A stretch of DNA of 64,000 nucleotides from assembly GCA_033439255.1 (NCBI GenBank), contig CM065891.1, positions 1,426,001 through 1,490,000 on the forward strand, in the 5' to 3' direction. Within the stretch, counting starts at the first letter, position 1. Each line of letters starts with the position of its first letter. Positions 6,518-46,161 of the stretch are shown here, one piece after another. The notes under the pieces were generated by a model that saw only the letters and a program-made list of their open reading frames with translations, searched no databases and was not told where the DNA came from. A program made the position numbers and the translations under genes. The stretch is from Hericium rajendrae (taxonomy: Eukaryota; Basidiomycota; Agaricomycetes; Russulales; Hericiaceae).

Positions 6518-7193
6518 AATTACACGCGGAATTTACAGGGTTAGAAGCTGTGTATTTATGATACCTTTATAGAGGCATTTTCGTCAATAATCAATCTGTA
6601 CGGTTTACTGAAGGATCCATGAGCCCGATTTTAACGGGAAATTTGAAAATCGATCAATCTCCGAGCAGATCGTACACATAAGATGGTCGTCGTTATGTGC
6701 TTGTATCTAAGACAAAGCATGGATATTAGGGCCAATCTACTCGGGCGCACCTGTTATGACTTTGAGACTGATGAACACAGCGATAAGTTCCAGAACGTAA
6801 CATTCCATGTCTATCGACAGACATGTACACAAGCAACTAATGGTCCAGAGAACATAAGCATATCCACGAGCGGATCCGCGGCCTCTAGCGCAGAACCGCC
6901 CTGCAAACCTCTATGCGCGCACATCTACAAAGCTGCGAAACAGAAAATGGATGAGCGAAAGCAGACGAAGACTAAATCCGCACGACGGACTGAGTGGCGT
7001 TGGGAAGTATTAACCCGTCGCATGGGTTTGGCGGATCAATGAAGTCTGTCGCCACTCCGAATTCTGTTTGAAAAAACACGTCAGACCCAGCCGGGGAAAG
7101 AAGAAACGTGAACCGCACCTCTGCATGCGGCGTTCTACACTATTAACAGGAAAAATGGGTCAGATGGCGATGGGCGTATAGAAGGGCAGGGCC
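6518..7193. other. Intergenic region, no gene recognised
   Basis: Contains the 3' end of the decarboxylase transcript. The short open frame at about 6683-7042 has no coding character (no family resemblance, low-quality composition), so it was not called. Confidence 0.5.
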
Positions 7194-26400: not shown

Positions 26401-28890
26401 TGCTTTGGCTAGGCGTGTCTGGTCGAAGATGGATCGACCGGGGATAAATCCGGCCTGGTTCTCGTGGACCATGACATCAACAGAACATGCAAGTTGGGAG
26501 GCGAGGGCCTTGGTAAAGAGCTTGTAGTCCGTGTTCAGAAGGGTGATGGGGCGGTAGTTGGAAATCTCAGTTTTTTCATTTTTCTTATAGATCGGGCACA
26601 TCCAGCCGAGACTGAAATCAGAGTCCTCATGAACACCATGGATCTGGATATCACGGAAGACTTGGGTGAGTATTTTCACGATGTCGAAGGAGCGCGCTGT
26701 CGGGTTGGCTTTAGTGAGCTTATTATGCACGTCATTGAGTTTTGTCCAGAGCTCATATGGGCAGCCGTCGACTCCAGTAGCGGTACCGTTTTTTGAAGTC
26801 TTCAGTGCCTGGGCAACGTGAAGACCATCGAGGAGGTCAGTAAGTTCAGTACGGTGTCCATCCGGTAAACATTGCTCGTCAGGGATTGCAGCAATGACGG
26901 CATGGATATTATCCACAGGGGTCATGCCATCTGGAGGAACGATACGGCCCTGGTCTTGGAGGTCACGGTGGTACGTACCAGCCAGTTCAGCCATGTGTTT
27001 GGAGTTAGTTTCATATCGTGGTGGGGCGGCATCACCAGGAATACGAAGGCGTTTGATCTGGTCGCGTGGTTTGTGCTCCTTATTGATTGTCGTCCAGTAT
27101 TTGTTAACTTGTTCACCTTTAAGATTCCATTGCGCCTTAGATTTGTCCCGTTCCTGAGCACGTTTCTTCGCCTCAAGATGATCAATTTCTTGTTGGATCA
27201 AAGCTTCAGATGCACGGATGTCCTCGTTGGTGTCAAAATCCGGACGCCGCGTAAGGGAAGCGGCATCTTTAGTAAGTTTTTTGATTTTCGTGCGGACCTT
27301 TCCAACGTTATTAATGGCGTATTCCCGTGAAAAGGTGGCGATCTCAGTCTTAAAGGCTTTCCAGAGCGTCTGAGGGTTCGCTTCTGGCACGCGAGGGCCG
27401 GTGAGGCCTTGGAGGTTAGCGGTTAAGGTGATGCCCCTCGTTATGATGTTTGATATGAATTTCTTGTCATTTACAAGATGCAAGGGTAGAGTCCAACGGC
27501 CCTTCCCTTTGAGCGGTGCATCAAATGGGGCAAAGCGAACAGTAATCATGGAGTGGTCGGTGAGGAGGCCAAGTTGGTGGCAGCCCCATTCAAACAGATT
27601 TTCTGATTGGGCGCGGGAGGCATAGATGTGGTCGAGGCGAGATGTATAGTATCCCCCGGCATTGACATGGGAACGGAATGTGAAAAGGCGAGCAGACGGG
27701 TGAGTGTCACGCCAGGTGTCCTGAAGGTGGTGGGCGTCGCGGAACGTGCGGAGCGCAGCTACCGCCGGAGGATGAGAGATATGCGCTGGTGCGCGATCAA
27801 TGGCTTCTTCGACAAGGTTGTAGTCGCCAAGCATAAAGTCGGGGTGAGGGAGGGCGGCTGCTCGCCACTTAGCAGACAAGGTTGACCAGAAGGCAGCGCG
27901 ACTATCGTCAGTGCCTTGCGTTGGACCATACACATTAAGAAGGGTGAGGCGGGCATTGCCTCGCCATCGAATGGAGAGTGCTATGGCACGTCCAGGAACT
28001 AGAACAGTAAGCACATAATCATCGGGGGTGAGGACATCCTTATTAATGACAAAGGCCACACCAGCAGAGACACCAGGTCGATCAGGGTCTCGCGAGTTGA
28101 GGACAAGGAGTCGTTTTGAGAAGAGAGTGTCAATACTGGACTCGTGCTCGAGTTGGAGGTGCGTCTCTTGAAGCGCAAGAATACCAATCTTATGGCTACG
28201 GACAGCGTTATTAATCTCAGTCCATTTAGATATTGGGCTCCAGCCAAATTGGGCAGAAGCCCGGCCATGCATATTCAGCGTCGCTAGCTTGATGTTAGCA
28301 CGTATTTTAAGATCACCATGAGGGTGATTGTCTGGGCGGCGGGGCCCGGGTTCAGGTGGCGGGCTAGGGCTTTGCGGTGGTTCAGGCGCCGGGGATGGCA
28401 GCGGTGATGGTGAGGGCTCAGGTTCAGGGCTCAGATCGTCGGGTGTGTGGTATCTCAGATTCGGGATTTCAGGTTCAGGGCGTGCGTTATCAGGGGTTCG
28501 AGGGTTCGGTATGGGTTCAGGTACTAATGGTGGATGTGGGCTCGGAGGGGTTGCCAGTCCATGAGTGGACGGCACAGCATTCACTTCCGGGAGCGGCATA
28601 CTGACCCCACGACCGGGAGCTGCCGGTGAACTTTGCATTCGATTTACACCTCGCTCAGGATGCACTCCGGGATATTCAGCTGGATTGGTGGGGTGCTGTA
28701 ACCCGCGTACGAACGGCCCAGAGCCCGTTGCACAGAGGGGTGCCTCCCCTCCCACGACTCCATCTCGAACGATGCGTTCGGGACTTCGCAGTCTGCCCTC
28801 CCCCGCAACACAAGTTGCAGCAAAAGGACCTGGTGTTTTGGCTATATTGGGGTTTGTATAGTGTGTCATCGGTAGTGGGCGGCCGTTCAT
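23444..28890 (-). pseudogene. LINE ORF2: AP endonuclease, reverse transcriptase, RNase H (inactivated)
   Basis: The ATG at 28890 opens a Pro-rich leader, then the endonuclease (KLATLNMHG, LALQETHLQ, LLNVYGPT, FMLGDYN, SRLDHIYAS, LLTDHSMITV). The reverse transcriptase follows (NYRPITLLNTDYKLFTKAL, AGFIPGRS, MALDQEKAYDKIDH, RGVRQGDPLSCLLFDL, and the FADD active site near 26030-26040). After the RT an in-frame TGA at 25564-25566 interrupts IIDKFM-stop-AGKRIPP, probably from TGG. The same frame resumes through RNase H (TMYTDGSC, TIATDSEYVING, FQWVKGHSG). Near 24065-24090 a 1-nt deletion shifts the frame into RPFQQFSYKGLHNVHRVGRYW and a CSACHDPDENMRHILTECP zinc-binding tail, ending at 23444. With two lesions the protein cannot be made whole from this copy. 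Confidence 0.9.
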
Positions 28891-29251
28891 ACATCCTATA
28901 CACCGTGGACCAACGTGGGTATAGACCGGGCAGCTGAATAAACCCTATACGGACGCCACGCGCAGTAGGGTGCGGCAGATGCTCAGCACGGGCCAGAGCA
29001 TGTACAGCAGGTTTTTACTTAGTTGGTTTCTGTCGCAAAGCAACTTTATTGCACAAAAACGATGGTCAACGGGTACAGGGGGAGCAGATAAGTACTAGGA
29101 TTTACTGGGGTACAGGGCGGAGGAAAGTGGGCATAAGAGACACGACAGAGAAGTAGTACGAGGCAGACCGGATGTGAAGAGTTTATCAGGAGTTTATACG
29201 TTGTAAAGAAAGAGGGCGACGAGGCGGCGCACGAGACACAAGCGGCAGTAG
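28891..29251 (-). other. LINE spacer between ORF1 and ORF2
   Basis: About 360 nt between the ORF1 stop and the ORF2 ATG on the LINE strand. It carries no credible coding frame, so ORF2 must be reached by internal initiation or reinitiation rather than by frameshift from ORF1. Confidence 0.5.
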
Positions 29252-29844
29252 CTACCCATGTCCCCACCCCCAGCGACCATTATAACCGCCACGGGCCGGG
29301 GGGGGTCCATTTTGGAAGGGCGGGGCCCTCGGGGCTTCCATGTCACGGGACGCAGGGATCTCCTGTACCGGAGGACCATTCCATTGCGGGATTGAAAAGA
29401 ACGGGCAAAGGCCATGGGGGTGGTCGTCGCCATGACAGCCGGCGCAGGAGAACGTACGCGCGGATTGCCCAGTACCATGAAGGAAGGTGGAGATGGGGTT
29501 CGAGTGAAGCCAGGCTTTGATCTCGTTCCAGCCCCACTGTGTCTTAGCCGGAGAGGCCATGTAAAGACGCCAGCAGGTTTGACGGTTTTGTGACTCCTGA
29601 GCCATTTTGATCGGTCGAATGGTGAGTGAGGCGAGGATATGGGCGACGCGGTCAGCAGGGAGGAGTAGAGAGAGCGCCTTCGCGTCTTTGCTGACGCGTT
29701 CTAAGACATCGCGGAAGCTGGAGTTGGCGAGGGAGGTGCGTAAGTCCGTGGTGAGATCAGCCGTGGTCGCGCTCGGGTCGGTGATGGAAGACGCCGTCGA
29801 GAATCCTTGAAAGTAGCCAATGAAGGACGGGACATAGCGCGCAC
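29252..29844 (-). pseudogene. LINE ORF1, C-terminal fragment (zinc knuckle)
   Basis: From the Gypsy border the minus strand reads ARYVPSFIGYFQGFSTA in the same frame as SLTIRPIKMAQESQNRQTC. A zinc knuckle of C-x2-C-x4-H-x4-C type (CAGCHGDDHPHGLC) follows, with a Gly/Pro-rich tail ending GWGHG. This is the RNA-binding, Gag-like ORF1 of the LINE. Its N-terminal part lies at 43637-44721 and ends IIHDRA. The two pieces belong to one ORF cut by the Gypsy insertion. Confidence 0.82.
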
Positions 29845-30348
29845 TGTCGCGTTCACGAAAAGTTCGTAAACTCGACCATGGACTTTCCCTGAATCAGCCC
29901 TACTATCATTCGACTGCTTGATCCAGCGTTTCATTAAGATGGCCGACTCCTGAATAGCTGAAGGTGGGTTCAGATCAAGATTCATCAGGTCAGCACTGAA
30001 AGAAAATGAAATTGAATATAATCCCTAACATCATATAATATTATTACGACTCACGGAAAATTGACGAAGTTACGCATCCCAGCTAGCCTCAATCGAACAA
30101 TCTGGGTGCCCTAGAAGGAGATTCGGAGAATAAGCAGCATGAACGAGGGACTCATTGGATAAATGGAAACTTGCATCGCTCTGGATAGCGGTCGACTGGA
30201 CCTTGGCGTGGATTATTTCGCCCGTGGAATCCCAAAAATACACCCATTGACCATTCTAACAGGAAAACAAGGGCATGAGACATATCAGGATAAACTCAAG
30301 TTAAAGAACCCTTACCTGAAAATTAAGCAGAGGATTGATGGTGTCCAT
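29845..30348 (-). pseudogene. Left-LTR copy of the antisense intron-bearing gene (read-through C-terminus)
   Basis: The same gene as at 41417-41935, with exons at 30316-30348, 30175-30255, 30055-30110 and from 29995 downward. In this copy the reading frame leaves the LTR at 29845 and runs into LINE ORF1 sequence (VNAT followed by VRAMSRPS), stopping only at 29701. The native end (SAGN-stop) is supplied outside the LTR only at the right copy. Splice signals are unchanged. Confidence 0.5.
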
Positions 30349-30377
30349 AGTCTAAGCAGCCAGAAGTGGGAGGCAAG

Positions 30378-31524
30378 ATGAGAGTACTTGTAAGAGATAG
30401 CGAAACGTGCGTGGAGCATTGTACTAAGCTCAGCCACCAAATTAAAAAGGAGGCCCAGATCGAACAAAGTGACGGCAATCGAAGCATACACCGCGGTGAC
30501 AAGAAGAAGGTCTCGGTTAAGCATACCTTTACGTTTGATGGACTTCTCAGGCCCAGAAAAAGTCAAAGCACTTCCTCGACGAACCAGGAACACCAACCTA
30601 TCCTCGCAACCACAATGTTCTTTCTTCGTCGCCAGTCTCACAATGGGTCCCCCAGCCTGAAAACCAGCTTTTGGTTCACGTTGAGCGTCAAACCCGCACA
30701 ACCGTGGAAAATGTTTCCATTCTTAGCCCACGCTTCTCTCTGCAGTACGATCCGACGGAAGACCGAATGCAACTCGAAACACCTCCTCCTATATACCAGC
30801 CCTCTCAATCTCCCTTTTCTCATATCATACATCCTGATCAGCTCGCCCGCTTCCTCATCCCAGACTACATTCTGACAGACCATATCATAATTCCCACCCA
30901 GCCAGGCAAGCCGAGCGCAAGCCTCATACGTAAGGAGTGCCCTCTGGGTTCATTCTACTCCATCAGCGCCCCTCACGACCTTCCTTCATTTTTATCTCGG
31001 CGGACTTGATCGAGGAAAACGTGAACAATCCATGGGTCTGTGTCGTCCGACCAACACGTGATGTGGCCGTGGGAGAAAGATTGGTAATAATGAGTGGAGA
31101 AGAAGGATATTGCGTATCAGGGATGGTGGAGGAGTTGGTCAGCGCAGGATTTAGCTGGATGCAGTTCAAGATCAGACGAGTCCCAGGGATCATCGACACG
31201 CACGGGCTAGGATGGGAAGGAAACCATCTGTTCATTTTCATCCCTCGGATCTGGAGTATCACATCTTCATCACTCGCATCACGCCTCATCGCCTGGACAG
31301 GATATAGAAAGATGGACATACTCGGTCGGTTCAACCCTTACGATCACATCCATACCTACTTCCCCCCTCACCTCAATTCCTCGATCCCACTGCCGCGGAC
31401 CACCGCATTTTTCTCCTACGTCAAAAGGATGGAGGGGATCAAGGCAGCACAGATTTTGAACCGTGAATCAAGGTACTACGTCAATCTGGAAGGATGGGCA
31501 AGGATTCAGAGCAGGGAAGCTTAA
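30378..31524 (+). pseudogene. Left-LTR copy of the U3 sense ORF, two frameshifts
   Basis: Corresponds to the intact 382-codon ORF at 41965-43113. Here a C is missing at 30649-30653 and another at 30983-30984. The frame therefore breaks after SHNGSP, resumes in a second frame (LVHVERQTRTTVENV) and again in a third (FIFISADLIEENVNNP). The C-terminal end LEGWARIQSREA is unchanged. Confidence 0.8.
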
Positions 31525-31577
31525 TGAGAAGAAGAGGCCCAATGTGGAAAGGTGCTTATTCAAAGGGGGTTACATCC

Positions 31578-31710
31578 GCTTACTCGCTCAAAAGGGGTCG
31601 CTGAGTCGTTCTAGTCCGATTACCAATTTACATTTTGCTTACTCGTTCTTTACAAATATGCTGAGTCGTTCAGTTCGTCGCTGATTCATGTGTTTAACTG
31701 CTGAGTCATC
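31578..31710 (+). promoter_or_regulatory. U3 enhancer-like repeats with TGAGTC motifs
   Basis: Two units spaced 60 bp apart begin GCTTACTCG and end CTGAGTCGTTC (31578-31611 and 31638-31671). A further CTGATTCATG (31681) and CTGAGTCATC (31701) follow. TGAGTCA matches the Gcn4/AP-1 bZIP consensus. The array sits about 90-220 bp upstream of the TATA box and recurs in the right LTR at 43167-43299. Confidence 0.5.
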
Positions 31711-31797
31711 TGATTTGAAGTTTAGTAATACGCTCCTTTACTTACCAATCGAATTTGGGCTGGTTAGTCAGACATGTACAGCCTCGGATTCCTCTAG

Positions 31798-31806
31798 TAT
31801 ATAAAG
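31798..31806 (+). promoter_or_regulatory. LTR TATA box
   Basis: TATATAAAG, about 60 bp upstream of an AATAAA signal (31860-31865). Together they bracket the expected R region. The same pair is at 43387-43395 and 43449-43454 in the right LTR. Confidence 0.7.
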
Positions 31807-32051
31807 AACCAGACCAAGGGAAAGAAATCCCTTCGAATAGACGCTATTCACCCCTGTGCAATAAAGTTGCATAAGACTGCCTGACTGCCAGACTGCTGTC
31901 CTGAATATCTCAGGAAATATATTCTGAATAAGTGTGCGACGAGCGCAAATTTCGGAAATTTAAATCCTCCCATTTGAACCACTAGGTGCACTCGGGAAAG
32001 ACTGAAAACCCAGTCCATCTAGGCTGATACCACATTTCAGCGCGACATCTT

Positions 32052-32069: not shown

Positions 32070-32301
32070 AGGGTAATTCTGAATTTGCTCCGCGCCACGT
32101 TCCAGCATCACGGCGACATCAATCGCATTCGACGACATCAGGACACCCTTCTCCCCGGAACCATCTGACTCTGAAGGATCATTCTCCGTACCGAGTACTG
32201 TTTCGAGCTGGAGATTCTCATTACAATCACCAAGTCCCACACCATCAAACATAGAACTACAATTTCTCATACCGACACTAACTATACACTCAGAACCCGA
32301 T

Positions 32302-35300
32302 ATGCCAGGTAATCTGTCTGAACAGGTCCCTTCTGGAGAAGGGATGTACGGAAACTACGGATACACTAACGATGGATATCACTATGGTTTGAATACGGCG
32401 GTGCCAGTGCCAACCGCTAACCCGAATAGCCCAATCCTATCGGTTTTAACTATGCCTCTACCCGGAACTAAGAACGCCCCCTTGAAATTCAAAGGAGAAT
32501 ACAATTATGTTGAACGCTTTATTGAGCACTTCGAGAAACTCTGTACGCAGAATAATGTGACGTCAGACCGAGAACGATGCACTGCGGTAAAGCAATATTG
32601 CTCCCGAAACGTAACCGAGGTAATCGAGGGACTGCCGAGTTACCGGAAACCGAACTGGGCAGCATTAAGGAAGGATCTGATGACTTACTTTGATGCTGAT
32701 CTCTACTCTCAGCGCTTCAAGAAGCGTGACTTAATTGCCTTCACGAAAAAGACGAAGCATAAACGAATGAATGATCTTGGATCATGGCGAAAGTACACAC
32801 GGGGTTTCGTCAAGATCGCGGGTTGGTTGCGAGACAAGGACAAGATATCCGAGGCTGAAGAAGCCATCTACTTCTGGGCCGGAATAGGACGAGGGCTGAG
32901 AGATATCATAGAAGCAAGATATCTGTCGACTCACCCCACTGCAGATCGATCGAAGCCCTTCCCAGTAAATGACATCTCGGCCATTGCGGAAAAGATCCTC
33001 CAACGAAACAAGTTTGACGACATTCTGGAGGACGAAAGCGATGACTTCGGGACTGATTGGTCAGGAGAGGACGAGAGCGAGGAGGAAGATACCTCGGACG
33101 ACGACCTACGGTATGATAAGCAACGGTGGAAGGCAGCTCATAAATCGAGCAAGAAGAGAAAGACACCTAAAAGGAAGAAGGTTAAATACGAGGATGATGC
33201 CAACGAGGAGGTAATAAACAAACCTAGGAGGGCTGGAACGCCGCCTGCACGAGAAGCCGATAACGATGAAGTCGAAGGACTGGTGCGGGAACTCAGCCGA
33301 ATGAAAATTAATGACCCCAATTACGCACTAGTTTACTATCGGGCACTGCGAATGGACGACCGTATTGCCAGCATTGTGGCACCGCCATTTATCGGGCAAG
33401 GAAAGTCAGGAGAATCGGAGGAACGAGGGCGCGATCGGTCACTTACTCGAAATAACTGGACAAGGGAAGGACCTCCTCACATGAGCCAGCCAGGACCAGC
33501 GAGAGGACCTCCACCTCTAACGTTCCCTCCGGTTAGACGAGATGAAATACGGTGTTTTGGGTGCAGAGAAATCGGGCATGGTCTGGGAATCTGTCCCAAG
33601 GTAAACGAGCAGGTAAGTAAAGGGCTGATCGCTCGAGACAGCTCGAGACGACTTACACATGGTAATGGAGCCCCTATACGGCGATCGGGGAACGAAACGC
33701 TCCTCGAAGCAGCGGCTAGAGAAAGAGGTGAAATGGGAAGGTCGAACACCACTCAATCAAACCTCGTCATGGTCGAAGATATCGAGGAATCCGATGATGA
33801 TGATGCTCATCCGGTGTTCCTCATGGCAAATGACTCAGACGAGGAATATTTTGCCTTTCCGGTCGAAAGAACACCCAAGCAATCCACCGCGGCTCGACGA
33901 CGAGTCTTTGATGGAGTTTATCCTCCAAAACGAATACCCCCGGGAAAAAGAACGGGAGGGGATGACTCAAGACCTCTGACGCCGGGTCACCGAACAACGC
34001 AAGCCGCGCGAATTCCGGGAGAACGAATAGGACACCCTGGAACCCGCAAGAAATCAGTAGGAGAAAATCAGAATCCAATATCCAAGAGCCAAGCCCAAAA
34101 ACCTGACCCGAGTAAGGAAAATAACTCCGTACGAGAGGACGTACCTATGGACTGGCGCGCCACGAACAATGATGATTCATCCGAAGAAGATGAGTCAGGA
34201 AAGGAGGATCGACTAAGGCGAATGCAAACGCGATTACGCACCAGTAATGTTCAACCAACCATTGAACAACTAGAAGATGTCGTACCCACGGCAATAACGC
34301 CACAGCGACCGATTGATACGAGGAGACCGGCATTTGATCCCAAGGATGACGAGGATATCCTTGAGGAAATGACAAATCGCCCTCAGAAAGGGGCGAAGGG
34401 ACCCAGGACCATAAGCAAGACGATCGAAAAGGAGAATAAGTCAAAAGCTACCATCAATCGTAAATCCGCAATCTCGGTCGACCCTTCGCGGGTCCTCGGA
34501 CAAGTCCTGAAAACGCCGGTACAACTATCAATAGGAGATATCTTAGGATCATCGAAAGAACTTCAAAACATTCTAACGGAAAATATGAAAAGGAAATCAG
34601 TAAATGTAGCTCTCGTAAATAAAGCGGAGACTCGCCAGACTACAATTAATCGACCGCACAGACCCCTTATTAAAGTCACCTTGCAGTTTAAGGGACGAGG
34701 GATTGAGGCAATCATAGATACGGGGTCCCAGTTGAATATTTTGAATCGTCAAGTCTGGAAGGACACCGTGCAGCTGCCGTTAGATATATCAAAGAAAATT
34801 GACATGCAGGATGCCAACGGGGGAACTGAAGCCCTCGAGGGACTTATGAGAAATGTTCCACTCACCTTTGGGTCTGTCGTTACGCACGCAGACTTGTTTG
34901 TGGGAGAACACGTCCCGTTCGAAATGTTGTTAGGCCGGCCTTGGCAACGCGGCAACTTCGTCTCAATAGACGAACGGCCGGACGGGACATATTTGGTGTT
35001 CAAGAACCCCAGCCAGCTGGAGGAACCACTATACGAAGTTGTGGTAGACCAGGAACCTGTAGATTTAGGAGATGTTTACTTTAGTAAAATAGAGGAATAC
35101 GAGAAAGAGGAATTCCGAACGTACCTCGTGCTAGAGAAAACACCCGAGAAGGACGGGCGAGACGACGCCTCAGAAGAAACGTTGCCTGAAGTTAATAAAA
35201 AGGAGATCTCTTGGGAAAATCCTAAGGTCGGGAAGGAAAGAATGGATCTAGACGAATCCAAGGGCAACGAGCGTAAGAATACTTCCCAAAGGGAAGAAAC

Positions 35301-37494
35301 AGACGGGGAAAACACCCACATACAGGAAAGAATAAAAGGGGAGCAGCTGCAACGAGAACGGCAGCAGTTCCACTCGAAACAGCTACCCCCAATGGACTCC
35401 ACCCAAGACTTCCCTATTGTTCACCCGCCTGCGGATATTCTCTTTAATCCTGACCGACCTCCGATTCCTCAGCCTATGCGCATGCCATTCCGAGGTAACA
35501 CGTTAGTAGATCGTGTACGCGCCAAGTTGCTCACTTACCTGGATCTAGCGTGGCCCGACCTGGATGCGCACGCAATGCGAGGCGCGTTGAACCGGATGAC
35601 CGACCGATTCACCGAGCTGGAGGACCATCGCCATTTCCTCACGATAAGCATCACCTCTAACCACGGACTGAACCTCGGGACCGGGTGGGATGGAGCGACG
35701 CAGTACCGCGATGCCTTCCTCGCCAACGCACAGTTTATCTGGAGGGACCCGAATAACCCGGATGAAGGCGGAATCGAGTTCGGACAGGTTTACGCTCGTG
35801 TCTTCAACGAGGCGCGTCGCGTCGCGAACAGATCTCCGGAGGATGAAGGACTCCCTGGGCTCCCGTACGGAGTGTTCACTCGTCACGGTAGGATTCCAGG
35901 GACCTTTCCAGAAGATGACCCGGTGGAAGGATATTCGGTGAACCCCGACTCCCCTGGTCAAGACTCTACGAACGCCGGCGACACGAATGATCCCACGCCC
36001 CTTCCCGGTCAGAACGCTAATCCGTCCCCTGATTCGAACAATTCGATCTCGCCAACTGCTCAGCTCAACGGGACGTCTACAACTGACACCGAAGCCGATG
36101 ACGAAGGGGACGGGGAAGTTCGAGTTACTCGCCCGCGTTTCTTTCCAAACCCTAGATATTTCGAGCTTCGAGGAACCCCCATCAGCGTCGGAACTGGCAC
36201 CACGGAGGCGACGATCTCTACTGACAGCACGTCTGTTGCATACTCCCCCGTTTCCCCACCTGACGACTCCGACTCAGACTCGGACATGCCATCGTTAGTC
36301 ACCTTATCTACCTCCGACTCGAGCTATAATTCCTTTCCAGGAACCCCGGACTCGTTGCCGCTCATCAAGGACAGGGGAATTCAAGTTCGGCAAGCCGAAG
36401 AAGATCAAGTCGATCCGGCGACGGGCAAGGAGTTTAGGTGGGGAGACGAACCGATCGACCCTCGACTGGCTAGAATCTTGCAGGGGAAGGTCTGCGTGAA
36501 GAAGCCCTCCCTGGTCTCTATTCGCGCGCGCTTCACGTCTGACGATCTGACTCTCGACCCTGCCTCGGAAGAAATATCTCAGACCGCGGCTACTTCACAA
36601 AGTCTCGACACAGCCCCGGCAGGGGTCGCGACGACTCAGGCGTCAAGCAACGCGAGCTCGAATTCAACCGAGAACTCCGGTTCGAAGGAAGGGAGCCAGC
36701 TGGATCTCCTCTACCCAGGGCAAGACGACGTGGCTACGATAGTGGAAGAACTAAAGATGGCAGCGAAGAAGGAGAAAGAGAGGCAGATGGAGATAGATAA
36801 GGAGAACCTGCCCCCGATCTACGTTAAGGACAGCGGACTGGCGCACGGTCCCCTGAGGGGCGTGCCTGCGAGCAGCGCGAGCGAGCACTCCGTCGAGCGT
36901 GGACGACACCTCCTTAACATCGAACCTATGCAGTACCCTCACGACTTCGTTAAGCCCGGCCGCTACATAAATAAGGTACAAGGCGCGCTCGACTTTCTCG
37001 TTCCCGGACGCCGTACCCTGGCAGACGATCCCTTTCATCAGGACGCGGTCCCTTTATACGCATTCTGGCGACAGGTCTTTCAGACGTTTCTTATCGTGCT
37101 CAAGGACAACTTGGGGGCAGCTCGGCGTCATTACGACAGCGAAATCAAGGAGCTCGCCGACATATTTAACGAGCCCGCTATCGTCTTCATTCAGGACTTC
37201 GCGGTTGACGACCCTCGCCTACCCCCGAGCGTGTTTCTCCGACCCTCTGAGGCCGGATTTCTGCGCTCCATGGCGGAGTTCTTTCGGTTGCAGGGACGTA
37301 AGAATTATGCTATCGCAGCGCATCAGTTGCTCTCGACCCACTTCGGGGACGATTATCTTATCATACGAACTGTGGGCACCGGGCTGCTCGACGGATTGCA
37401 ACACCCGGGGCTCATCACCCTGCATGACCGCGAATTTAACGAGTTGCAAGGGCTCGTCGACGAGTATATCATCGACGAGAAGATCTTCGTCTAA
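32302..37494 (+). CDS. gag: Gypsy gag-protease polyprotein with long C-terminal extension
   Basis: A continuous ORF of 1730 codons from ATG 32302 to TAA 37494. Residues about 65-200 are a Ty3/Gypsy gag capsid-like domain (RFIEHFEKLCTQNNVTSD, LRKDLMTYFDADLYSQRFK). A disordered acidic segment follows. A CCHC zinc knuckle lies at residues 418-431 (CFGCREIGHGLGIC). The retropepsin active site DTGS is at residue 806 (IEAIIDTGSQLNILN), with a GRPWQRG block near 880. Beyond the protease about 800 more residues continue, including a repeated-looking acidic tail, a module near 1070-1200 (LDLAWPDLDAHAMRGALN, FAQVY-like) and a C-terminal helical module (VPLYAFWRQVFQTFLIVLKD to DEYIIDEKIFV). I do not recognise these extra modules. 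The end overlaps the pol frame by about 290 nt. Confidence 0.92.
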   Translation: MPGNLSEQVPSGEGMYGNYGYTNDGYHYGLNTAVPVPTANPNSPILSVLTMPLPGTKNAPLKFKGEYNYVERFIEHFEKLCTQNNVTSDRERCTAVKQYCSRNVTEVIEGLPSYRKPNWAALRKDLMTYFDADLYSQRFKKRDLIAFTKKTKHKRMNDLGSWRKYTRGFVKIAGWLRDKDKISEAEEAIYFWAGIGRGLRDIIEARYLSTHPTADRSKPFPVNDISAIAEKILQRNKFDDILEDESDDFGTDWSGEDESEEEDTSDDDLRYDKQRWKAAHKSSKKRKTPKRKKVKYEDDANEEVINKPRRAGTPPAREADNDEVEGLVRELSRMKINDPNYALVYYRALRMDDRIASIVAPPFIGQGKSGESEERGRDRSLTRNNWTREGPPHMSQPGPARGPPPLTFPPVRRDEIRCFGCREIGHGLGICPKVNEQVSKGLIARDSSRRLTHGNGAPIRRSGNETLLEAAARERGEMGRSNTTQSNLVMVEDIEESDDDDAHPVFLMANDSDEEYFAFPVERTPKQSTAARRRVFDGVYPPKRIPPGKRTGGDDSRPLTPGHRTTQAARIPGERIGHPGTRKKSVGENQNPISKSQAQKPDPSKENNSVREDVPMDWRATNNDDSSEEDESGKEDRLRRMQTRLRTSNVQPTIEQLEDVVPTAITPQRPIDTRRPAFDPKDDEDILEEMTNRPQKGAKGPRTISKTIEKENKSKATINRKSAISVDPSRVLGQVLKTPVQLSIGDILGSSKELQNILTENMKRKSVNVALVNKAETRQTTINRPHRPLIKVTLQFKGRGIEAIIDTGSQLNILNRQVWKDTVQLPLDISKKIDMQDANGGTEALEGLMRNVPLTFGSVVTHADLFVGEHVPFEMLLGRPWQRGNFVSIDERPDGTYLVFKNPSQLEEPLYEVVVDQEPVDLGDVYFSKIEEYEKEEFRTYLVLEKTPEKDGRDDASEETLPEVNKKEISWENPKVGKERMDLDESKGNERKNTSQREETDGENTHIQERIKGEQLQRERQQFHSKQLPPMDSTQDFPIVHPPADILFNPDRPPIPQPMRMPFRGNTLVDRVRAKLLTYLDLAWPDLDAHAMRGALNRMTDRFTELEDHRHFLTISITSNHGLNLGTGWDGATQYRDAFLANAQFIWRDPNNPDEGGIEFGQVYARVFNEARRVANRSPEDEGLPGLPYGVFTRHGRIPGTFPEDDPVEGYSVNPDSPGQDSTNAGDTNDPTPLPGQNANPSPDSNNSISPTAQLNGTSTTDTEADDEGDGEVRVTRPRFFPNPRYFELRGTPISVGTGTTEATISTDSTSVAYSPVSPPDDSDSDSDMPSLVTLSTSDSSYNSFPGTPDSLPLIKDRGIQVRQAEEDQVDPATGKEFRWGDEPIDPRLARILQGKVCVKKPSLVSIRARFTSDDLTLDPASEEISQTAATSQSLDTAPAGVATTQASSNASSNSTENSGSKEGSQLDLLYPGQDDVATIVEELKMAAKKEKERQMEIDKENLPPIYVKDSGLAHGPLRGVPASSASEHSVERGRHLLNIEPMQYPHDFVKPGRYINKVQGALDFLVPGRRTLADDPFHQDAVPLYAFWRQVFQTFLIVLKDNLGAARRHYDSEIKELADIFNEPAIVFIQDFAVDDPRLPPSVFLRPSEAGFLRSMAEFFRLQGRKNYAIAAHQLLSTHFGDDYLIIRTVGTGLLDGLQHPGLITLHDREFNELQGLVDEYIIDEKIFV

Positions 37495-40400
37495 GGTCTG
37501 TCCCGATTCGGTATGGAGAGAGTCTGAAGCTAAATTCCCCGCGAACGTCTGTAGTGATCGATGTAGCTATTCGCGGTGCTTCGGCGCCTGCTCCTCAAAC
37601 GATCCCCGACTCATGCAGTATTTTCGAGTAGCACGGAGAGCGCTCGAACGTCTTGGTTTCACGATATTCGGTTCTATATTTCCCCATCTCGAATCCGTTC
37701 ACTGTAACACTACTTCCGGCTCTCTTTTAGAAGACTCCCTTCGACCTATATATGCGAATCTCAACGGTGCTTCTCTACTCAGTATGCAAACTCCTTTTCT
37801 AAGCCCGGGCAACTTACCATTTACAGTCATCCTTAATCCATATCTCTCGCCATCGCCCGTGGCGCTATGTCTCTCTCTCTCTCCCCATCGTGATAGCTTA
37901 ACTAATGTACGATACTACATTGACAGAAGTCGGCCGGACGAAGAGTCCGAACGTCGAGTTGTACGATACCTTTCGGATAGAAGGAGTTTCCTGCCAGACG
38001 AAGAATCCGAGCCTTATGTACAATATGATAGAAATTACGAACTGACCAAGAAATTCAGTCATGTTTCCTTGTATAAGCCGGTCCCGCGGGAAAGTCTATC
38101 GTGTTACTGGTACTCGATTAAAAGTTCCTCTTCACTCCCAGTTACGTCAGATTCAGAATTACCTCTCACTTATCAATCCTTGACGGCCTATAAACGAGTT
38201 GACAAGAAAATAAAACCCGTAGCAGGAACGTTTCCCGAATCAGCGCGAGTACATCGGCGCTTCCCTGAAGATCCACTTCAAAGCCTGCCTCCATTGACAC
38301 AACGACCACCAGAATTCGAACCTAACGGGCGCATAACGTCGGAACGCCTCGAACTCTTAAGTATCAACAGTGAAGGGTTCCTCTGGCCAGAAGAGGAAAA
38401 GCTATTCAAACATATTATGGTCCTAAACCAGGAAGCACTCGCCTTCGAAGAAACGCAACGAGGAACATTAAAGGAGTCATATTTCACGCCGTATATCATT
38501 CCAACCATTCCTCACACGCCGTGGACTTACAAGAATATTCCCATTCCTCCAGGGATCAAAGACAAAGTGATTGACCTCTTGAAGGAGAAAATTTCAGCTG
38601 GGGTATACGAGCCATCCCAGTCCGCCTACCGATCACGATGGTTTTGCGTGTTAAAAAAGAATGGAAAGCTACGTATAGTCCACGATCTGCAACCGCTCAA
38701 CAAAGTAACCATACGCGATGCAGGTGTACCACCTATTTTGGACAATTTCGTCGAACCATTTGCAGGGCGAGCCTGTAGTACTGTCTTTGACCTTTTTGGG
38801 GATTCGACGCCCGAAAAGTCAACCCAGAGAGTCGAGACTTAACCGCATTCTTGACACCATTAGGTCTGCTCCGGATCACCTCAATGCCTATGGGCTTTAC
38901 CAACTCTCCGGCAGAATTCCAGAACTGCATGACCTTCGTCTTACAAGATGAGATCCCCGACCACGCTAATATATTCATCGATGACCTTGCCGTGCGTGGA
39001 CCAAAGACGCAGTACCTAGACGCAAATGGAAATCCCGAGGTGCTGACAGAAAATCCAGGAATTCGCAGATTTATCTGGGAGCACGTGGTAGACGTGCATC
39101 GGATCATGCACAGGATCAAGGAGGCCGGGGCCACTTTTGCACCAAACAAGGTGCAGCTCTGCAGGCCAAACGTGGTGATTCTTGGACAAACATGTACGCC
39201 CGAAGGGCGAATACCGGAAGACAAGAAGGTGGAAAAGATCACGACATGGCCACCTCTGAAGAATCCAAAGGAAGTACGTGGATTCCTAGGACTCTGCGGT
39301 ACGGTACGAATATGGATCCCACGATATTCAGAGATAATACGGCCCTTGACAGAACTAACACGGAAGCAGGTCGAGTTCGTATGGGACGAACGACGAGCAA
39401 AAGCGTTCGAACGCCTAAAGCAACTAGTATCTAGCGCGCCTGCATTACGTTCAATCGATTACAATTCCTCCAATCCGGTGATCCTTTCAGTCGATTCCAG
39501 CTACATCGCTGTAGGATTCATTTTATCGCAGCTCGACGACGAAGGAAGACGCCGGCCTGCAAGATATGGGTCACTCCCCATGTCCGAAGTTGAGTCGCGA
39601 TATTCCCAACCAAAGTTAGAACTGTTCGGCTTATATCGAGCCCTAAAACATTACAGTATCTATATAATTGGAGTCAAGAATTTCTATGTGGAAGTGGACG
39701 CCAAATACATCAAAGGCATGCTCAACTCCCCGGACCTCCAGCCAAATGCTGCGGTAAACAGATGGATTCAAGGAATCCTAATGTTCGACTTCACATTGAT
39801 CCACGTATCTGCAGAAAAGTTCCGAGGGCCGGACGCGCTATCTCGGCGAAGCCCGGCAGACGGAGAAGAACTGGAATTTGACGACGATTCGTGGCTTGAC
39901 AACATCGCCCTATACGCGACCACGAAAACGCCTATAGCAAGATCGGAGGAAGAGCACCGGGCTCGAACCCCCGCTCAATACTCAACGGACGAGTTACCCT
40001 CGTCGTTCCCCATCACCAGACGACTTGACAATACTCTTGAAGACATTCGTAGGTTCCTTACAACTCTTCAGTACCCAGATTATATCAAATCCACAAAAGA
40101 CGATATGCGATTTATTCAGAAAGCCTCGAAGTACTTCGTCAAAAATGGAGCAATGTTCAGAAGAAATGGTACGCGAGCACCCGTCAAAGTCATCCTCCAA
40201 AGGAAGGGACGCATTGATCTTATGACTCAGGCACACGAAGGATTAGGACATCGGGGAGAACAGTCAGTATTTGAAACTCTAAGGTTGCGATTCTTCTGGC
40301 CGCACATGCGAGCAGACATACATCACCACATACAATCATGCCACGAGTGCCAGCTCCGGAGTCTGAAAAGAATGCAAGTCCCCTTGACTGTATCTACGCC

Positions 40401-41376
40401 TTCAGCATTATGGGTAAAGGTGTACATTGATCTAATGAATATGCCTAAGACTTCTGAGAAGAACGGGTTCAGATACATTGTAGCTGCGCGAGATGATCTA
40501 TCGCGTGCGTCAGAGGGAAGAGCCTTGAGAAACAAAAATTCGACTGGAATTGCTAGGTTCCTTTGGGAACAAATCTACTGCCGCTACGGAGCTATAGGAC
40601 AGATTGTTACTGATAATGGATCCGAGTTTCAGCTTGCCTTTCATGAGCTAACCGAAAAATGGGGGATCCCACATGTCACCATCTCTCCTTATAACTCTAA
40701 GGCCAATGGGGTAGTTGAACGCGGACACTATATAATACGGGAAGCTATCGTTAAATCCTGCGAAGGAAGAATAAATCAGTGGCCCAGCAAAGTAGCTCAT
40801 GCTTTCTTTGCTGATCGAATCACCGTAAGTCAAGTTACAGGATTCTCCCCATATTTTTTGCTCCATGGAACACATCCGGTACTCCCTTTCGACCTGACTG
40901 AAGCATCGTTCCTTGTCGACGGATTTCAGGCAGGAATGAAACCAGAAGATCTCCTGGTGCTAAGGATTAGACAGCTTGAGAAGAGACCTGCGGACATCGC
41001 AGCGGCGGCACTATGTCTTAGGAAGTGCAGATTTCGATCAAAGGAAAAGTTTGAGAAGAAGTTCGCCAAAAGGCTTCGACGTGATTTCTATCAGCCCGGA
41101 GAACTAGTCTTAATTCGTAACTCGGCGGTGGAACAGAGCAAAAACAAGAAGGCCAAGCCCCGATATCTTGGGCCATTCATCATTGACCGACGAACACAAG
41201 GAGGATCTTATGTTCTAAAAGAAGTAACCGGCACAATCAAACGAGACGCGGTTGCAGCATTCAGACTTCTGCCTTACATATCACGCGAAGGGACGAGACT
41301 CAGACAACTGGCCACAGAACTAGCCAACCGAGAAGATGGAGACTCTAATACTGAAGACAGTTCAGAAGAAGACTAA
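37205..41376 (+). pseudogene. pol: Gypsy pol: reverse transcriptase, RNase H, integrase (one frameshift)
   Basis: The pol frame is +1 relative to gag, opens inside the gag end and has no ATG near its start, so frameshifted translation is likely. A linker leads to KRVDKKIKPVAGTFPE. The RT reads GVYEPSQSAYRSRWFCVLKK, IVHDLQPLNKVTIRDAG, and motif A TVFDLF, where one T is missing from the T5 run at 38793-38797. Adding it gives the usual WGFDAR continuation. The next frame carries SMPMGFTNSPAEFQ and the catalytic FIDD. RNase H begins VILSVDSSYIAVGFILSQLD. Integrase has an HHCC domain (HEGLGH, CHECQ near 40231-40355) and the D-D-E core (VYIDLM, VTDNGSEFQ, GVVERGHY). The tail matches fungal Gypsy integrases (FIIDRRTQGGSYVL). 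The stop is at 41376. Confidence 0.93.
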
Positions 41377-41431
41377 ATACAAATCCAAGAAGCAGGCAAC
41401 CAGAGACGGTTGCAATTCAATTCCCCGCGGA
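41377..41431 (+). other. Short spacer between pol and the right LTR
   Basis: No purine-rich tract is present. The last bases are AATTCCCCGCGGA; AATTCCCCGCG recurs at 37533-37543 just after the gag stop. On the minus strand this spacer supplies the final codons and TGA of the antisense LTR gene. Confidence 0.6.
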
Positions 41432-41935
41432 TGTCGCGTTCACGAAAAGTTCGTAAACTCGACCATGGACTTTCCCTGAATCAGCCCTACTATCATTTGA
41501 CTGCTTGATCCAGCGTTTCATTAAGATGGCCGACTCCTGAATAGCTGAAGGTGGGTTCAGATCAAGATTCATCAGGTCAGCACTGAAAGAAAATGAAATT
41601 GAATATAATCCCTAACATCATATAATATTATTACGACTCACGGAAAATTGACGAAGTTACGCATCCCAGCTAGCCTCAATCGAACAATCTGGGTGCCCTA
41701 GAAGGAGATTCGGAGAATAAGCAGCATGAACGAGGGACTCATTGGATAAATGGAAACTTGCATCGCTCTGGATAGCGGTCGACTGGACCTTGGCGTGGAT
41801 TATTTCGCCCGTGGAATCCCAAAAATACACCCATTGACCATTCTAACAGGAAAACAAGGGCATGAGACATATCAGGATAAACTCAAGTTAAAGAACCCTT
41901 ACCTGAAAATTAAGCAGAGGATTGATGGTGTCCAT
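41417..41935 (-). CDS. Antisense intron-bearing gene in the LTR, 111-residue product of unknown function
   Basis: Not a recognised family. Four exons on the minus strand (41903-41935, 41842-41762, 41697-41642, 41582-41417) join in phase. Exon A reads MDTINPLLNFQ. Exon B reads NGQWVYFWDSTGEIIHAKVQ and ends QSD. Exon C begins GTQIVRLRLAGMRNFVNF. Exon D begins ADLMNLDLNPPSAIQ and ends VNATSAGN with TGA at 41417-41419. Donor/acceptor pairs are GTAAGG/TTAG, GCAAGT/CTAG (a GC-AG intron) and GTGAGT/CAG. The WVYFWDSTG...GTQIV pattern suggests a small beta-barrel of SH3 or Tudor type, but that is a guess. The only LTR substitution I saw falls here and is synonymous (TCG/TCA, Ser). The last four codons lie outside the LTR. 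Confidence 0.5.
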
Positions 41936-43636
41936 AGTCTAAGCAGCCAGAAGTGGGAGGCAAGATGAGAGTACTTGTAAGAGATAGCGAAACGTGCGTG
42001 GAGCATTGTACTAAGCTCAGCCACCAAATTAAAAAGGAGGCCCAGATCGAACAAAGTGACGGCAATCGAAGCATACACCGCGGTGACAAGAAGAAGGTCT
42101 CGGTTAAGCATACCTTTACGTTTGATGGACTTCTCAGGCCCAGAAAAAGTCAAAGCACTTCCTCGACGAACCAGGAACACCAACCTATCCTCGCAACCAC
42201 AATGTTCTTTCTTCGTCGCCAGTCTCACAATGGGTCCCCCCAGCCTGAAAACCAGCTTTTGGTTCACGTTGAGCGTCAAACCCGCACAACCGTGGAAAAT
42301 GTTTCCATTCTTAGCCCACGCTTCTCTCTGCAGTACGATCCGACGGAAGACCGAATGCAACTCGAAACACCTCCTCCTATATACCAGCCCTCTCAATCTC
42401 CCTTTTCTCATATCATACATCCTGATCAGCTCGCCCGCTTCCTCATCCCAGACTACATTCTGACAGACCATATCATAATTCCCACCCAGCCAGGCAAGCC
42501 GAGCGCAAGCCTCATACGTAAGGAGTGCCCTCTGGGTTCATTCTACTCCATCAGCGCCCCTCACGACCTTCCCTTCATTTTTATCTCGGCGGACTTGATC
42601 GAGGAAAACGTGAACAATCCATGGGTCTGTGTCGTCCGACCAACACGTGATGTGGCCGTGGGAGAAAGATTGGTAATAATGAGTGGAGAAGAAGGATATT
42701 GCGTATCAGGGATGGTGGAGGAGTTGGTCAGCGCAGGATTTAGCTGGATGCAGTTCAAGATCAGACGAGTCCCAGGGATCATCGACACGCACGGGCTAGG
42801 ATGGGAAGGAAACCATCTGTTCATTTTCATCCCTCGGATCTGGAGTATCACATCTTCATCACTCGCATCACGCCTCATCGCCTGGACAGGATATAGAAAG
42901 ATGGACATACTCGGTCGGTTCAACCCTTACGATCACATCCATACCTACTTCCCCCCTCACCTCAATTCCTCGATCCCACTGCCGCGGACCACCGCATTTT
43001 TCTCCTACGTCAAAAGGATGGAGGGGATCAAGGCAGCACAGATTTTGAACCGTGAATCAAGGTACTACGTCAATCTGGAAGGATGGGCAAGGATTCAGAG
43101 CAGGGAAGCTTAATGAGAAGAAGAGGCCCAATGTGGAAAGGTGCTTATTCAAAGGGGGTTACATCCGCTTACTCGCTCAAAAGGGGTCGCTGAGTCGTTC
43201 TAGTCCGATTACCAATTTACATTTTGCTTACTCGTTCTTTACAAATATGCTGAGTCGTTCAGTTCGTCGCTGATTCATGTGTTTAACTGCTGAGTCATCT
43301 GATTTGAAGTTTAGTAATACGCTCCTTTACTTACCAATCGAATTTGGGCTGGTTAGTCAGACATGTACAGCCTCGGATTCCTCTAGTATATAAAGAACCA
43401 GACCAAGGGAAAGAAATCCCTTCGAATAGACGCTATTCACCCCTGTGCAATAAAGTTGCATAAGACTGCCTGACTGCCAGACTGCTGTCCTGAATATCTC
43501 AGGAAATATATTCTGAATAAGTGTGCGACGAGCGCAAATTTCGGAAATTTAAATCCTCCCATTTGAACCACTAGGTGCACTCGGGAAAGACTGAAAACCC
43601 AGTCCATCTAGGCTGATACCACATTTCAGCGCGACA
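41432..43636 (+). repeat. Right (3') LTR, 2205 bp
   Basis: Second copy of the LTR, starting TGTCGCGTTC and ending CAGCGCGACA. It carries the intact sense ORF (41965-43113), the antisense gene, the TGAGTC array, the TATA box (43387-43395) and AATAAA (43449-43454). Confidence 0.95.
41965..43113 (+). CDS. U3-encoded sense ORF of the Gypsy element, 382 residues, unknown function
   Basis: An uninterrupted ORF of 382 codons inside U3 of the right LTR, on the same strand as gag and pol and about 590 nt downstream of the pol stop. Genomic RNA made from the left LTR would therefore carry it at its 3' end, the place where env or accessory genes sit in other retroelements. I recognise no family. The N-terminal 80 residues are basic and low in quality, so the true start may be the later ATG at 42202 (MFFLRRQSHNGS). 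The rest looks like a folded protein (PENQLLVHVERQTRTTVENV, SFYSISAPHDLPFIFISAD, NNPWVCVVRPTRDVAVGERL, GFSWMQFKIRRVPGIIDTHG, GRFNPYDHIHTYFPPHLN). No signal peptide or clear membrane span is seen. Confidence 0.55.
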   Translation: MRVLVRDSETCVEHCTKLSHQIKKEAQIEQSDGNRSIHRGDKKKVSVKHTFTFDGLLRPRKSQSTSSTNQEHQPILATTMFFLRRQSHNGSPQPENQLLVHVERQTRTTVENVSILSPRFSLQYDPTEDRMQLETPPPIYQPSQSPFSHIIHPDQLARFLIPDYILTDHIIIPTQPGKPSASLIRKECPLGSFYSISAPHDLPFIFISADLIEENVNNPWVCVVRPTRDVAVGERLVIMSGEEGYCVSGMVEELVSAGFSWMQFKIRRVPGIIDTHGLGWEGNHLFIFIPRIWSITSSSLASRLIAWTGYRKMDILGRFNPYDHIHTYFPPHLNSSIPLPRTTAFFSYVKRMEGIKAAQILNRESRYYVNLEGWARIQSREA

Positions 43637-44721
43637 GCGCGGTCATGGATGATGAAGGTACCGTTACGGTGGGCGAACACCTTATGGTCGACAAGGAACT
43701 GTGTCTGCTCCGCATCTTGTCCATAGATAAGGAAGGCAGGGGGACGCTCATGGCGGGGGATACTCGGTCGGTGGGAGGCGGGGTTCGCCGGTGCAATGCG
43801 GGCATTAGTGATGCCCTCACGGAGTAAGAGAGCTTCGATCCATACAAGGGATTCCTCCTGGCGATCGAGCGCAGTGCGGTTGAAGACGTGAAGGATGCAG
43901 CCGCCTTTGATGGTGCGTCGCCAGTGCTCAAATTGAGTGGGGTCCTGGGCGTAGCAGGGTCCTAAGGGGTCAAGGAAAGTGGGTAACACCCACCCGCCAG
44001 GGGGTGCGGGGGTATTGGAGTCCCAGGTTGCGCTGCGCGGGGCGGGGGCAGGGCCGAGGTGCGGCTTCGCAGCCGGCGCGAGCCAAGCACTCCATTCGTC
44101 CTCATCCTCATCCTCGACTGTAGGCGCAGGAGGAGCGGAGGCGGTCGTGGTGTTAGAGCCGGACGGAGTAGGGGGCGGAGCGTTTTCACGCAGCGTGGTG
44201 AGGACGAGACGTGAGTTGTCTTGCGGGTCGAGCGCATAGGCGCGCTTGGCGACGTCACCTGTGGCAGAGGCGGGAACAGTAGGATCGGCTGGCACAGGGG
44301 TGGCTGCATTGATGAGGTCGATGTATTGTTGGTCAAAAGCGGGGGAACCCTGTTTCGTCCCTCGGAGGCTGGTCGGTAAAACCGGAGATTGCGGGGGTAG
44401 AGAAGGCGCGGCATGAGCAGACGAGGGAGCGTCGACGGCCATGGGGTCATCCGGGGGGGCGGTTTGAGCGTCAACAGGGACGTTGGGCACGGGAGCGCTG
44501 GGGGCCAGGAGCGTTTCCGCTGCAGGTGCAGGCGTCGCCACAGCAGCGTAGGATGGAGCAGGGGCGGCGGGGGCGGTAGGCTGAAGATCACCATTCGGCT
44601 GCGTCGTGACTGCGGTACTGCTTGGCCTCGCACGCTTGCGCGACGGCGGGGTCGGGGATGGCGGGGACGCCGCGGGGGTTGTCTTAGCGGGCGGCGCGGC
44701 CGCTGGCACTTTTGGGGCCAT
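43637..44721 (-). pseudogene. LINE ORF1, N-terminal fragment (Gag-like)
   Basis: The ATG at 44721 begins MAPKVPAAAPPAKTT, a long Pro/Ala/Ser-rich disordered leader with an acidic patch (VEDEDEDEWSAWL). A folded part follows (GWVLPTFLDPLGPCYAQDP, FEHWRRTIKGGCILHVFN, RPPAFLIYGQDAEQTQFLVD). It breaks at the Gypsy border after FIIHDRA and continues at 29844 downward. An alternative in-frame ATG is at 44808. The leader and order (disordered, RRM-like, zinc knuckle) are typical of fungal LINE ORF1. Confidence 0.82.
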
Positions 44722-45483
44722 GGGGAAACCCGGGTGCAGTGGCAGGTAGAGTACAGGGAGAGTGGTTGGGTTGGGACGACAGAGGGGGTTCCAGGACACC
44801 GTTATCATGGCTGGAGGGACAGAGACTTTATACGGGAAGCAGGAGATAAGTAGAGTGAGCCGGTTTGCAGTATGGCGGCGTGATTCGGCAAGGTGCGCGC
44901 GTCGCACTAGAGTGTGGAGTGCTAAGTATGCAGGATTGACAGCGGTCGGGTCATTGTAGCGACGGGCAATGGGGCGTGAGGGAGAAATAGTCCGTAGGGG
45001 GTTCGGTGAGCGTACCTTTTGGCCGGATGGGATTGCGTGGCCTTCTTGATCAGCTTGCGGAGCGTGTCATTGGAGGGACAATGAGGCGATGAGGGCGGGA
45101 GACGGAGAGCGTGGGTAGGGGAACACGATAGGCGGGTGAGCAGTCGGCGCGCCGGGGGGTACCGGTTAGGTGCGGGGATCGTCGGGAAGGCATCCGAGGT
45201 GGCTGGGGTTCTTGGTTCAGTGTCAAACGGTGGCTGGGGTCAGTTGGGTCGGGAAGTCAGGTAGCTCCTAATGGCTGGCAGCGTATTCGGACGGGGTGTG
45301 CATACAGTTCTTCCGTCGAGGGGGAGGAGAAGCATAGGGTGGAGGGTGTCAGAGGCATCAGGCCAATATCGGACTTATGTGCGGAGGGTAGAATTTTACC
45401 CGAGGTGGGTGAGCAGTTTATAAGACGTGAAAGAGGCATAAGCGCTAATTTAACAACTTTGTCACTCCTTCTTCCTCCCAGTA

Positions 45484-46161
45484 ATGGAGGCTCCAACAGT
45501 TAAACCGTCTGGTCCAGTCCTTCATTTTCCTTACATTGATCATACCCGACAAGCTCCTCCTCAGCATTCTAGGAAGGAATATCTCCGCGTTGCCGGTGCT
45601 CAATCCCTCGGGGTCAAGACGGGGATCTTCCGGATCATTCATGAGCCCATTGTCGTGGGTGAGAGTGCTAGACACATTATCGTGGTGGAGGCATGGGAGG
45701 AGCGGATGAGCGTTGGTCTTACCATTAGCTGGCGGAACAACAATCTGTGGCCCAAGGCGCTGGTCCATTGCGAGTTGGCGCAGGTTGGTGACTACGTTCG
45801 CTTCATGGCTAAGGGTGTGGACCCCTTCACAGGCATGGAGGGTATGCTGTACGTGTGGTGCCCGGTAATCTGGGCTGTGACAGGCTTGCCAGGAATACCG
45901 CCAGTGTTCCCGTCAACTCCCTGGGGGTTCATAGAGGACGAGCAGGAGGGGACGACCACTGCATCGACGTCAGCTAGCGAGTCGCCCACACTCTCAGTCC
46001 CACCCCCCCTTCACGCTGTCAGCAGCACATCTCTGGTACAGGGAGAGGAGGCCGACGTCTCACCAGGTTCAGCTGGGAGGGCTGCTAGCATGGGCCGCAA
46101 GCCACGCAGGGGAGGTGGATTGAGAAAGGTGGGGTCTTGGTTGAGCAGCCTCCGGTTTTAA
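45484..46161 (+). CDS. Antisense ORF in the LINE 5' region, 225 residues, unknown function
   Basis: An intronless ORF with a clean ATG at 45484, opposite in strand to the LINE and wholly within its 5' region. The first 150 residues look folded (VLHFPYIDHTRQAPPQHSRK, FRIIHEPIVVGESARHIIVV, LTISWRNNNLWPKALVHCEL, MEGMLYVWCPVIWAVTGLPG). The tail is Ser/Thr-rich and ends basic (RKPRRGGGLRKVGSWLSSLRF). I recognise no family. It could be an accessory ORF driven by an antisense promoter of the LINE, comparable in position to primate L1 ORF0, or a captured host fragment. No minus-strand ORF of similar quality competes with it. Confidence 0.5.
   Translation: MEAPTVKPSGPVLHFPYIDHTRQAPPQHSRKEYLRVAGAQSLGVKTGIFRIIHEPIVVGESARHIIVVEAWEERMSVGLTISWRNNNLWPKALVHCELAQVGDYVRFMAKGVDPFTGMEGMLYVWCPVIWAVTGLPGIPPVFPSTPWGFIEDEQEGTTTASTSASESPTLSVPPPLHAVSSTSLVQGEEADVSPGSAGRAASMGRKPRRGGGLRKVGSWLSSLRF

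Follow-up and report, generated by a model that had tools for sequence, protein, structure and literature searches.

The carrier element and the reading frames in its LTR

The window, a stretch of 64,000 nucleotides from the basidiomycete Hericium rajendrae, contains a Ty3/Gypsy element that encodes protease, reverse transcriptase (RT), RNase H and integrase in that order and is flanked by two long terminal repeats (LTRs) of 2.2 kb. The 5' LTR occupies positions 29845..32047 and the 3' LTR positions 41432..43636 of the plus strand, the latter with the ends TGTCGC..GCGACA. A plus-strand open frame of 1803 aa (32083..37494, stop to stop) was taken as gag by its position and as protease by matches to aspartyl protease profiles, the scores of which were near the cut-offs. 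The pol frame (38791..41376, plus strand) gave profile matches to the end of RT, to RNase H and to integrase; RT scored just under the Pfam cut-off (28.1 vs 29.6), RNase H and integrase above theirs. The two LTRs differ by one substitution (29911C/41498T) and two single-base gaps. A clean target-site duplication was not seen at the ends of the element, where the flanks 29839-29844 and 43637-43642 read GCGCAC and GCGCGG. The element sits between two minus-strand open frames (25564-28944 and 43549-45066) which, judged by eye, look like LINE-like frames (endonuclease-RT and first ORF).

On the minus strand of the 3' LTR, four exons join in frame to 111 codons, from an ATG at 41935-41933 to a stop ending at 41417. 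Exon 1 (41903..41935), which carries the ATG, is followed by intron 1 (41843..41902; 60 nt, GT-AG, GTAAGG..TTAG), exon 2 (41762..41842), intron 2 (41698..41761; 64 nt, GC-AG, GCAAGT..CTAG), exon 3 (41642..41697), intron 3 (41583..41641; 59 nt, GT-AG, GTGAGT..TCAG) and exon 4 (41417..41582), all on the minus strand. Intron 2, GC-AG in the window, is GT-AG in the C3 copy of the LTR. The exons match exactly those of the initial annotation, which had also placed the last four codons and the stop outside the right LTR and had called the only LTR-LTR substitution it noticed synonymous. Indeed, the 3' LTR of the window begins at 41432, the substitution is synonymous in this frame and the two single-base gaps fall outside the antisense gene. 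A second copy of the gene lies on the minus strand of the 5' LTR (29845..30348) with its ATG at 30348.

The plus strand of the same LTR carries an intronless ORF of 303 codons plus stop (42202..43113), hereafter the sense ORF; its copy in the 5' LTR (30615..31524, plus strand) has two single-base deletions. These deletions of a single C at 30649 and 30983 (vs 42236 and 42571) break the frame, and the sense ORF in the 5' LTR of the C2 element is apparently broken near the first site too, with the 3' LTRs of both elements open; slippage or sequencing error is a possible cause. Two divergent genes thus share the LTR as one locus. Since the antisense gene and the sense ORF face apart, the 266 nt between their start codons (41936..42201) probably hold a divergent promoter, presumed from this layout, which could serve both genes.

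A six-frame scan over the LTR found the sense frame constrained at about 42107-43157 in all three comparisons. The mirrored antisense register was also constrained, in some windows of the scan equally strongly, but contained 7 to 12 stops. The sense ORF is free of stops in three of four copies, with one stop in C8, and its dN/dS values in five pairs were 0.118, 0.112, 0.097, 0.138 and 0.113. Between the window and C1, synonymous divergence was 2.51 in the C-terminus of pol and 0.54 in the sense ORF, which looks like separate histories of LTR and pol through LTR exchange.

Among the matches listed, distant relatives of the sense ORF often occur as same-strand pairs, most of them 12-16 kb apart as read off from their positions. 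One pair on C2 was checked: a direct repeat of 1557 bp, 99.5% identical and beside pol, contains the sense-ORF relative. At least one further Gypsy family therefore carries a related ORF in its LTR. The paired spacing suggests that many more Gypsy LTRs do so. The C2 repeat ends so close to the start of the ORF that there is no room for the antisense gene, which was not seen in the LTR of that family. At loci with a sense ORF of the window type, the antisense gene or its remains were present in 12 of the 13 listed; the remains lie about 2.9 kb from the sense ORF in C6, and in C4 the sense ORF is split. The one locus without the antisense gene is C1:113137, an LTR copy whose homology ends, short of the antisense start, at the equivalent of position 41979 in the window.

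Conservation of the antisense frame among LTR copies

A search of the H. rajendrae genome (46.8 Mb, 19 contigs) yielded 12 LTR copies; 11 were detected by DNA search and the twelfth, a more diverged one on C8, by protein search. Nine copies, two each on C14 and C2, one on C3 and four on C1, have a frame open to at least codon 90 and retain all three introns, each with an AG acceptor and a GT or GC donor; this set includes families at 87% and 77% DNA identity. The three broken copies are C6, which is without exon 1, C4, which stops early and has lost an acceptor, and C8, with one stop, and all three lie outside the four elements with two LTR matches about 11.6 kb apart. Random stops and broken splice sites in other copies, named in the initial annotation as what would speak against a gene, were thus looked for, and nine of 12 copies proved intact.

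Could a frame of this kind arise by chance, from LTR sequence that happens to splice open? Dinucleotide shuffles of the 519 nt gave a spliced frame of at least 111 codons with at most three introns in 18 of 1000 cases, and the single sequence is therefore only suggestive. Once the copies are compared, the antisense frame is far more conserved than chance would allow: frame and splice sites are retained across families at a dN/dS of about 0.11 while the introns diverge, and relatives outside the window-type LTR, described below, have matching intron positions. On this comparison a chance frame was rejected, and we give it hardly any credence.

For dN/dS, the first 90 codons were used, since five copies stop there or soon after, and the broken C6 and C4 copies were excluded. 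By counting, dN/dS amounted to 0.127 (window-C3), 0.107 (window-C1) and 0.105 (C3-C1). When the substitutions were shuffled, as few amino-acid changes were reached in 2, 0 and 0 of 5000 trials, respectively. At intron sites outside the splice sites, 24/153 (window-C3), 58/152 (window-C1) and 61/152 (C3-C1) differed. A codon model with the window, C3, C1 and C8, the stop of the latter treated as a gap, gave an omega of 0.146 with a lnL of -799.93 vs -840.47 at omega 1, the latter optimised over a grid of three kappa values (2 x delta lnL 81). The dN/dS of the joined frame over element copies, a check suggested in the initial annotation, is thus 0.11-0.13 by counting and 0.146 in the codon model. 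C14 and C2 differ by 1.5 nonsynonymous and 0.5 synonymous changes, and so close a pair says little. The C-terminus of Pol is under stronger constraint than the antisense gene (dN/dS 0.034).

The constraint was then resolved by exon, with z expressing the amino-acid changes relative to shuffled substitutions. In the antisense register, z for window-C1, C3-C1 and window-C3 was -2.0, -0.2 and -2.4 in exon 1, -4.7, -4.2 and -2.0 in exon 2, -2.8, -3.2 and -2.4 in exon 3, and -2.0, -2.4 and -1.5 in exon 4 up to codon 90. Three of 54 values from the introns reached -2 (-2.5, -2.2 and -2.2). One might ask whether a protein overlapping on the sense strand, or structural DNA, causes this pattern, because LTR ends have a function of their own and because one mirrored sense register per exon is partly constrained (z -2.2 in exon 2, -2.7 and -2.8 in exon 3, -2.5 in exon 4). 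Such a partial signal is expected of a mirrored codon register, however, and the mirrored registers contain stops in exons 1, 2 and 4; the three sense frames of 41417-41935 have 9, 10 and 10 stops, their longest open stretch being 62 codons. Only the antisense register is stop-free in every exon. Sense-strand coding was rejected as the source of the constraint on account of these stops, and an overlapping protein or structural DNA is, taken together, a very improbable cause.

A further explanation is that the antisense strand acts as RNA, its transcription silencing or tuning the element, and that the protein is no more than a remnant. Non-coding antisense RNAs have been described for other retroelements, according to the available part of a review (PMC7264820), but the target of selection here is the amino-acid sequence: the protein is conserved, whereas introns and third codon positions have diverged. 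We consider a role as RNA highly unlikely. The claim of the initial annotation that the LTR holds an intron-bearing, protein-coding antisense gene finds support in the retained frame and splice sites and in the signature of selection, which has preserved the gene.

The 3' end of the gene is less uniform. The antisense frame of the 3' LTR extends beyond the repeat in the window and C2 elements and ends at a stop in the internal spacer; in the 5' LTRs of the same two elements (C14 and C2) it continues into the flanking DNA. In five of the nine open copies the stop is inside the LTR, at codon 90 in C3 (one copy) and at codon 92 in C1 (four copies). The initial description of a gene spanning the LTR border therefore holds for the window lineage but not in general. 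From these comparisons we conclude that the antisense gene proper is about 90 codons long and that loss of a stop gave the window copy its tail; past codon 92 or so, the window frame seems to read through the end of the LTR and 15 nt of internal spacer. The C-terminus of the antisense protein varies between families. At its start the LTR has an inverted repeat that is evident in the C8 copy and may explain the likeness of the tail DNA among copies.

Relatives of the antisense gene elsewhere in the genome

A protein search of the genome revealed eight loci besides the LTR copies. Gene models were made by hand for six of them, with introns placed at matching sites, and all six had three introns at matching positions. 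The remaining two are duplicates: L045 of L044 (97.6%) and L050, through exon 2, of L048 (99.5%). Five of the modelled relatives (L044, L047, L048, L049 and L051) lie outside recognised elements; they share all intron positions, encode 63-65 residues with a short conserved tail and evolve with an omega of about 0.06. The sixth, L046, has a longer tail like that of the LTR genes.

The L046 gene lies antisense inside a Gypsy-related element of 5.8 kb (1391-7160 of that locus) with 137-bp LTRs, at an internal position downstream of a gag-protease frame; a long pol frame was not seen in this element. Its gag-protease ORF is related to that of the window (51% over 202 codons), and both elements have TGGAGCCCACC after the 5' LTR. 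Within this element lineage, the antisense gene thus has two locations, one within the LTR and one internal to the element.

The unrooted tree of the antisense family gives no direction of capture. Conceivably, the family is an original Gypsy accessory gene and the five genes outside elements are relics or were adopted by the host. The position of the L046 gene within an element would fit such an origin, as would the location of L044/L045 and L048/L050 in duplicated DNA and the presence, some 1.2 kb from the L051 gene, of a Gypsy pol frame on the opposite strand. On the other hand, the five outside genes are more constrained and have a shorter C-terminus, and among the repeats listed per locus in the flanking stretches no LTR pair surrounds any of them; at L051, a 158-bp repeat at 80% brackets pol and not the small gene. 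An origin in Gypsy elements is, on balance, somewhat unlikely, and capture of the small gene by a Gypsy lineage is the reading we prefer.

At two of the outside loci, an ORF follows the small gene on the same strand. That at L047 (4722-6211) is related to the sense ORF of the LTR (E 9e-8), that at L048 (4878-6239) not significantly (E 5). Near the element in the window, a 235-codon ORF (45454-46161, plus strand) is a distant relative of the L048 neighbour (E 5e-8) and has ten further matches in the genome.

Searches and known systems

Sequence databases held no candidate for the antisense protein, Pfam no match up to E 1 and NCBIfam none; PDB had none for the antisense family. Two of nine family members matched FlgD_tudor, a Tudor/SH3-like small barrel, below the cut-off (best E 0.025, 15.2 vs 26.9 bits), which is only a hint. 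For the sense ORF, none of 662 candidates from sequence databases reached E 1 or lower, the window protein had no match in Pfam or NCBIfam, and the best PDB hits were at E 0.55 and 2.1. Pfam matches within the sense family (four profiles, each in one of seven members; best E 0.016) were taken as chance, as was the single Pfam match of the L054 ORF at E 0.079. A structure model of the sense protein from one sequence had a mean pLDDT of 31.9 and was unusable. Profile comparison of the antisense and sense LTR protein families found no relation between them (probability 0.4%). In titles and abstract starts of the open-licence literature, neither a spliced antisense gene nor conserved ORFs were found reported for LTRs of fungal Gypsy elements, which is no proof of absence for either.

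LTR-carried genes are known on the sense strand, such as sag of MMTV and nef of HIV, which lie within or across the 3' LTR. By layout, the sense ORF of the window resembles them; unlike them, it is present in both LTRs and has relatives in paired places across the genome among the matches listed. Additional ORFs (aORFs) on the antisense strand have been described in maize Grande (gene23), rice RIRE2, Silene Retand and Botrytis Boty; the available part of the review reports them as antisense to gag-pol, near the 3' LTR, present in most copies of a family and without clear database relatives, and locates them internally, after pol and before the 3' LTR (PMC7264820). The window gene is likewise antisense to gag-pol and conserved at the protein level in most copies (9/12 open, omega 0.146). 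In contrast to those aORFs, it lies inside the LTR, and so twice per element, its three introns are conserved, and it has relatives at other loci of the genome. The gene of the L046 element differs from it by its internal position. HTLV-1 hbz and other retroviral antisense genes are expressed from the 3' LTR beside sense genes and have spliced forms, as stated in the accessible part of a second article (PMC10186651). Unlike hbz, which encodes a bZIP protein, the antisense protein had no such match in Pfam up to E 1, and the fungal gene, known here from sequence, is a three-intron gene situated almost entirely within the LTR. LTR retrotransposons of bdelloid rotifers contain extra ORF3s expressed as separate, spliced units, for which the portion of the report at hand describes no antisense or LTR-internal genes (PMC5408684).

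A probable spliced antisense gene, most likely captured with its introns

Taken together, we hold with good confidence that this Gypsy LTR carries a working, spliced antisense gene of about 90 residues, which was most likely captured with its introns and is a probable accessory or regulatory factor. The protein belongs to a family of small proteins in this genome with a fixed four-exon structure, and a Gypsy lineage most likely acquired the small gene in antisense orientation, introns included. Copying of a retroelement uses the sense RNA, in which introns read as their complement cannot be spliced. The antisense introns would thus persist because the RNA that is reverse transcribed is the sense strand. 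The initial annotation had argued in the same way, and the argument fits the LTR, where the antisense gene has three introns and the sense ORF is unbroken by any. Transcription of the antisense gene would start in the interval between the two start codons, and its introns would be removed from the antisense transcript. Since the antisense protein has no match in Pfam, NCBIfam or PDB, its function is argued from analogy: by comparison with the aORFs and the retroviral antisense genes, as far as the sources seen in part describe them (PMC7264820, PMC10186651), it probably serves the element in a regulatory or accessory capacity.

More tentatively, and with less than even confidence, the LTR may be a two-gene control locus with a shared promoter, in which sense and antisense factors regulate the element as in HTLV and the sense gene, to judge by its paired places, recurs in the LTRs of several Gypsy families. 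The adjacency of relatives of both genes at L047, outside recognised elements, suggests that the two proteins cooperate; the proposal loses some weight because, of the two loci L047 and L048, the former alone has an ORF significantly related to the LTR sense ORF next to its small gene.

Loss of introns is the norm for entities that are copied through RNA, and a backward-facing gene that keeps three introns in an LTR is a clean natural case of the way in which retroelements can carry genes with introns. The LTR, usually deemed purely regulatory, has coding capacity on both strands here, and similar genes may be missed elsewhere.
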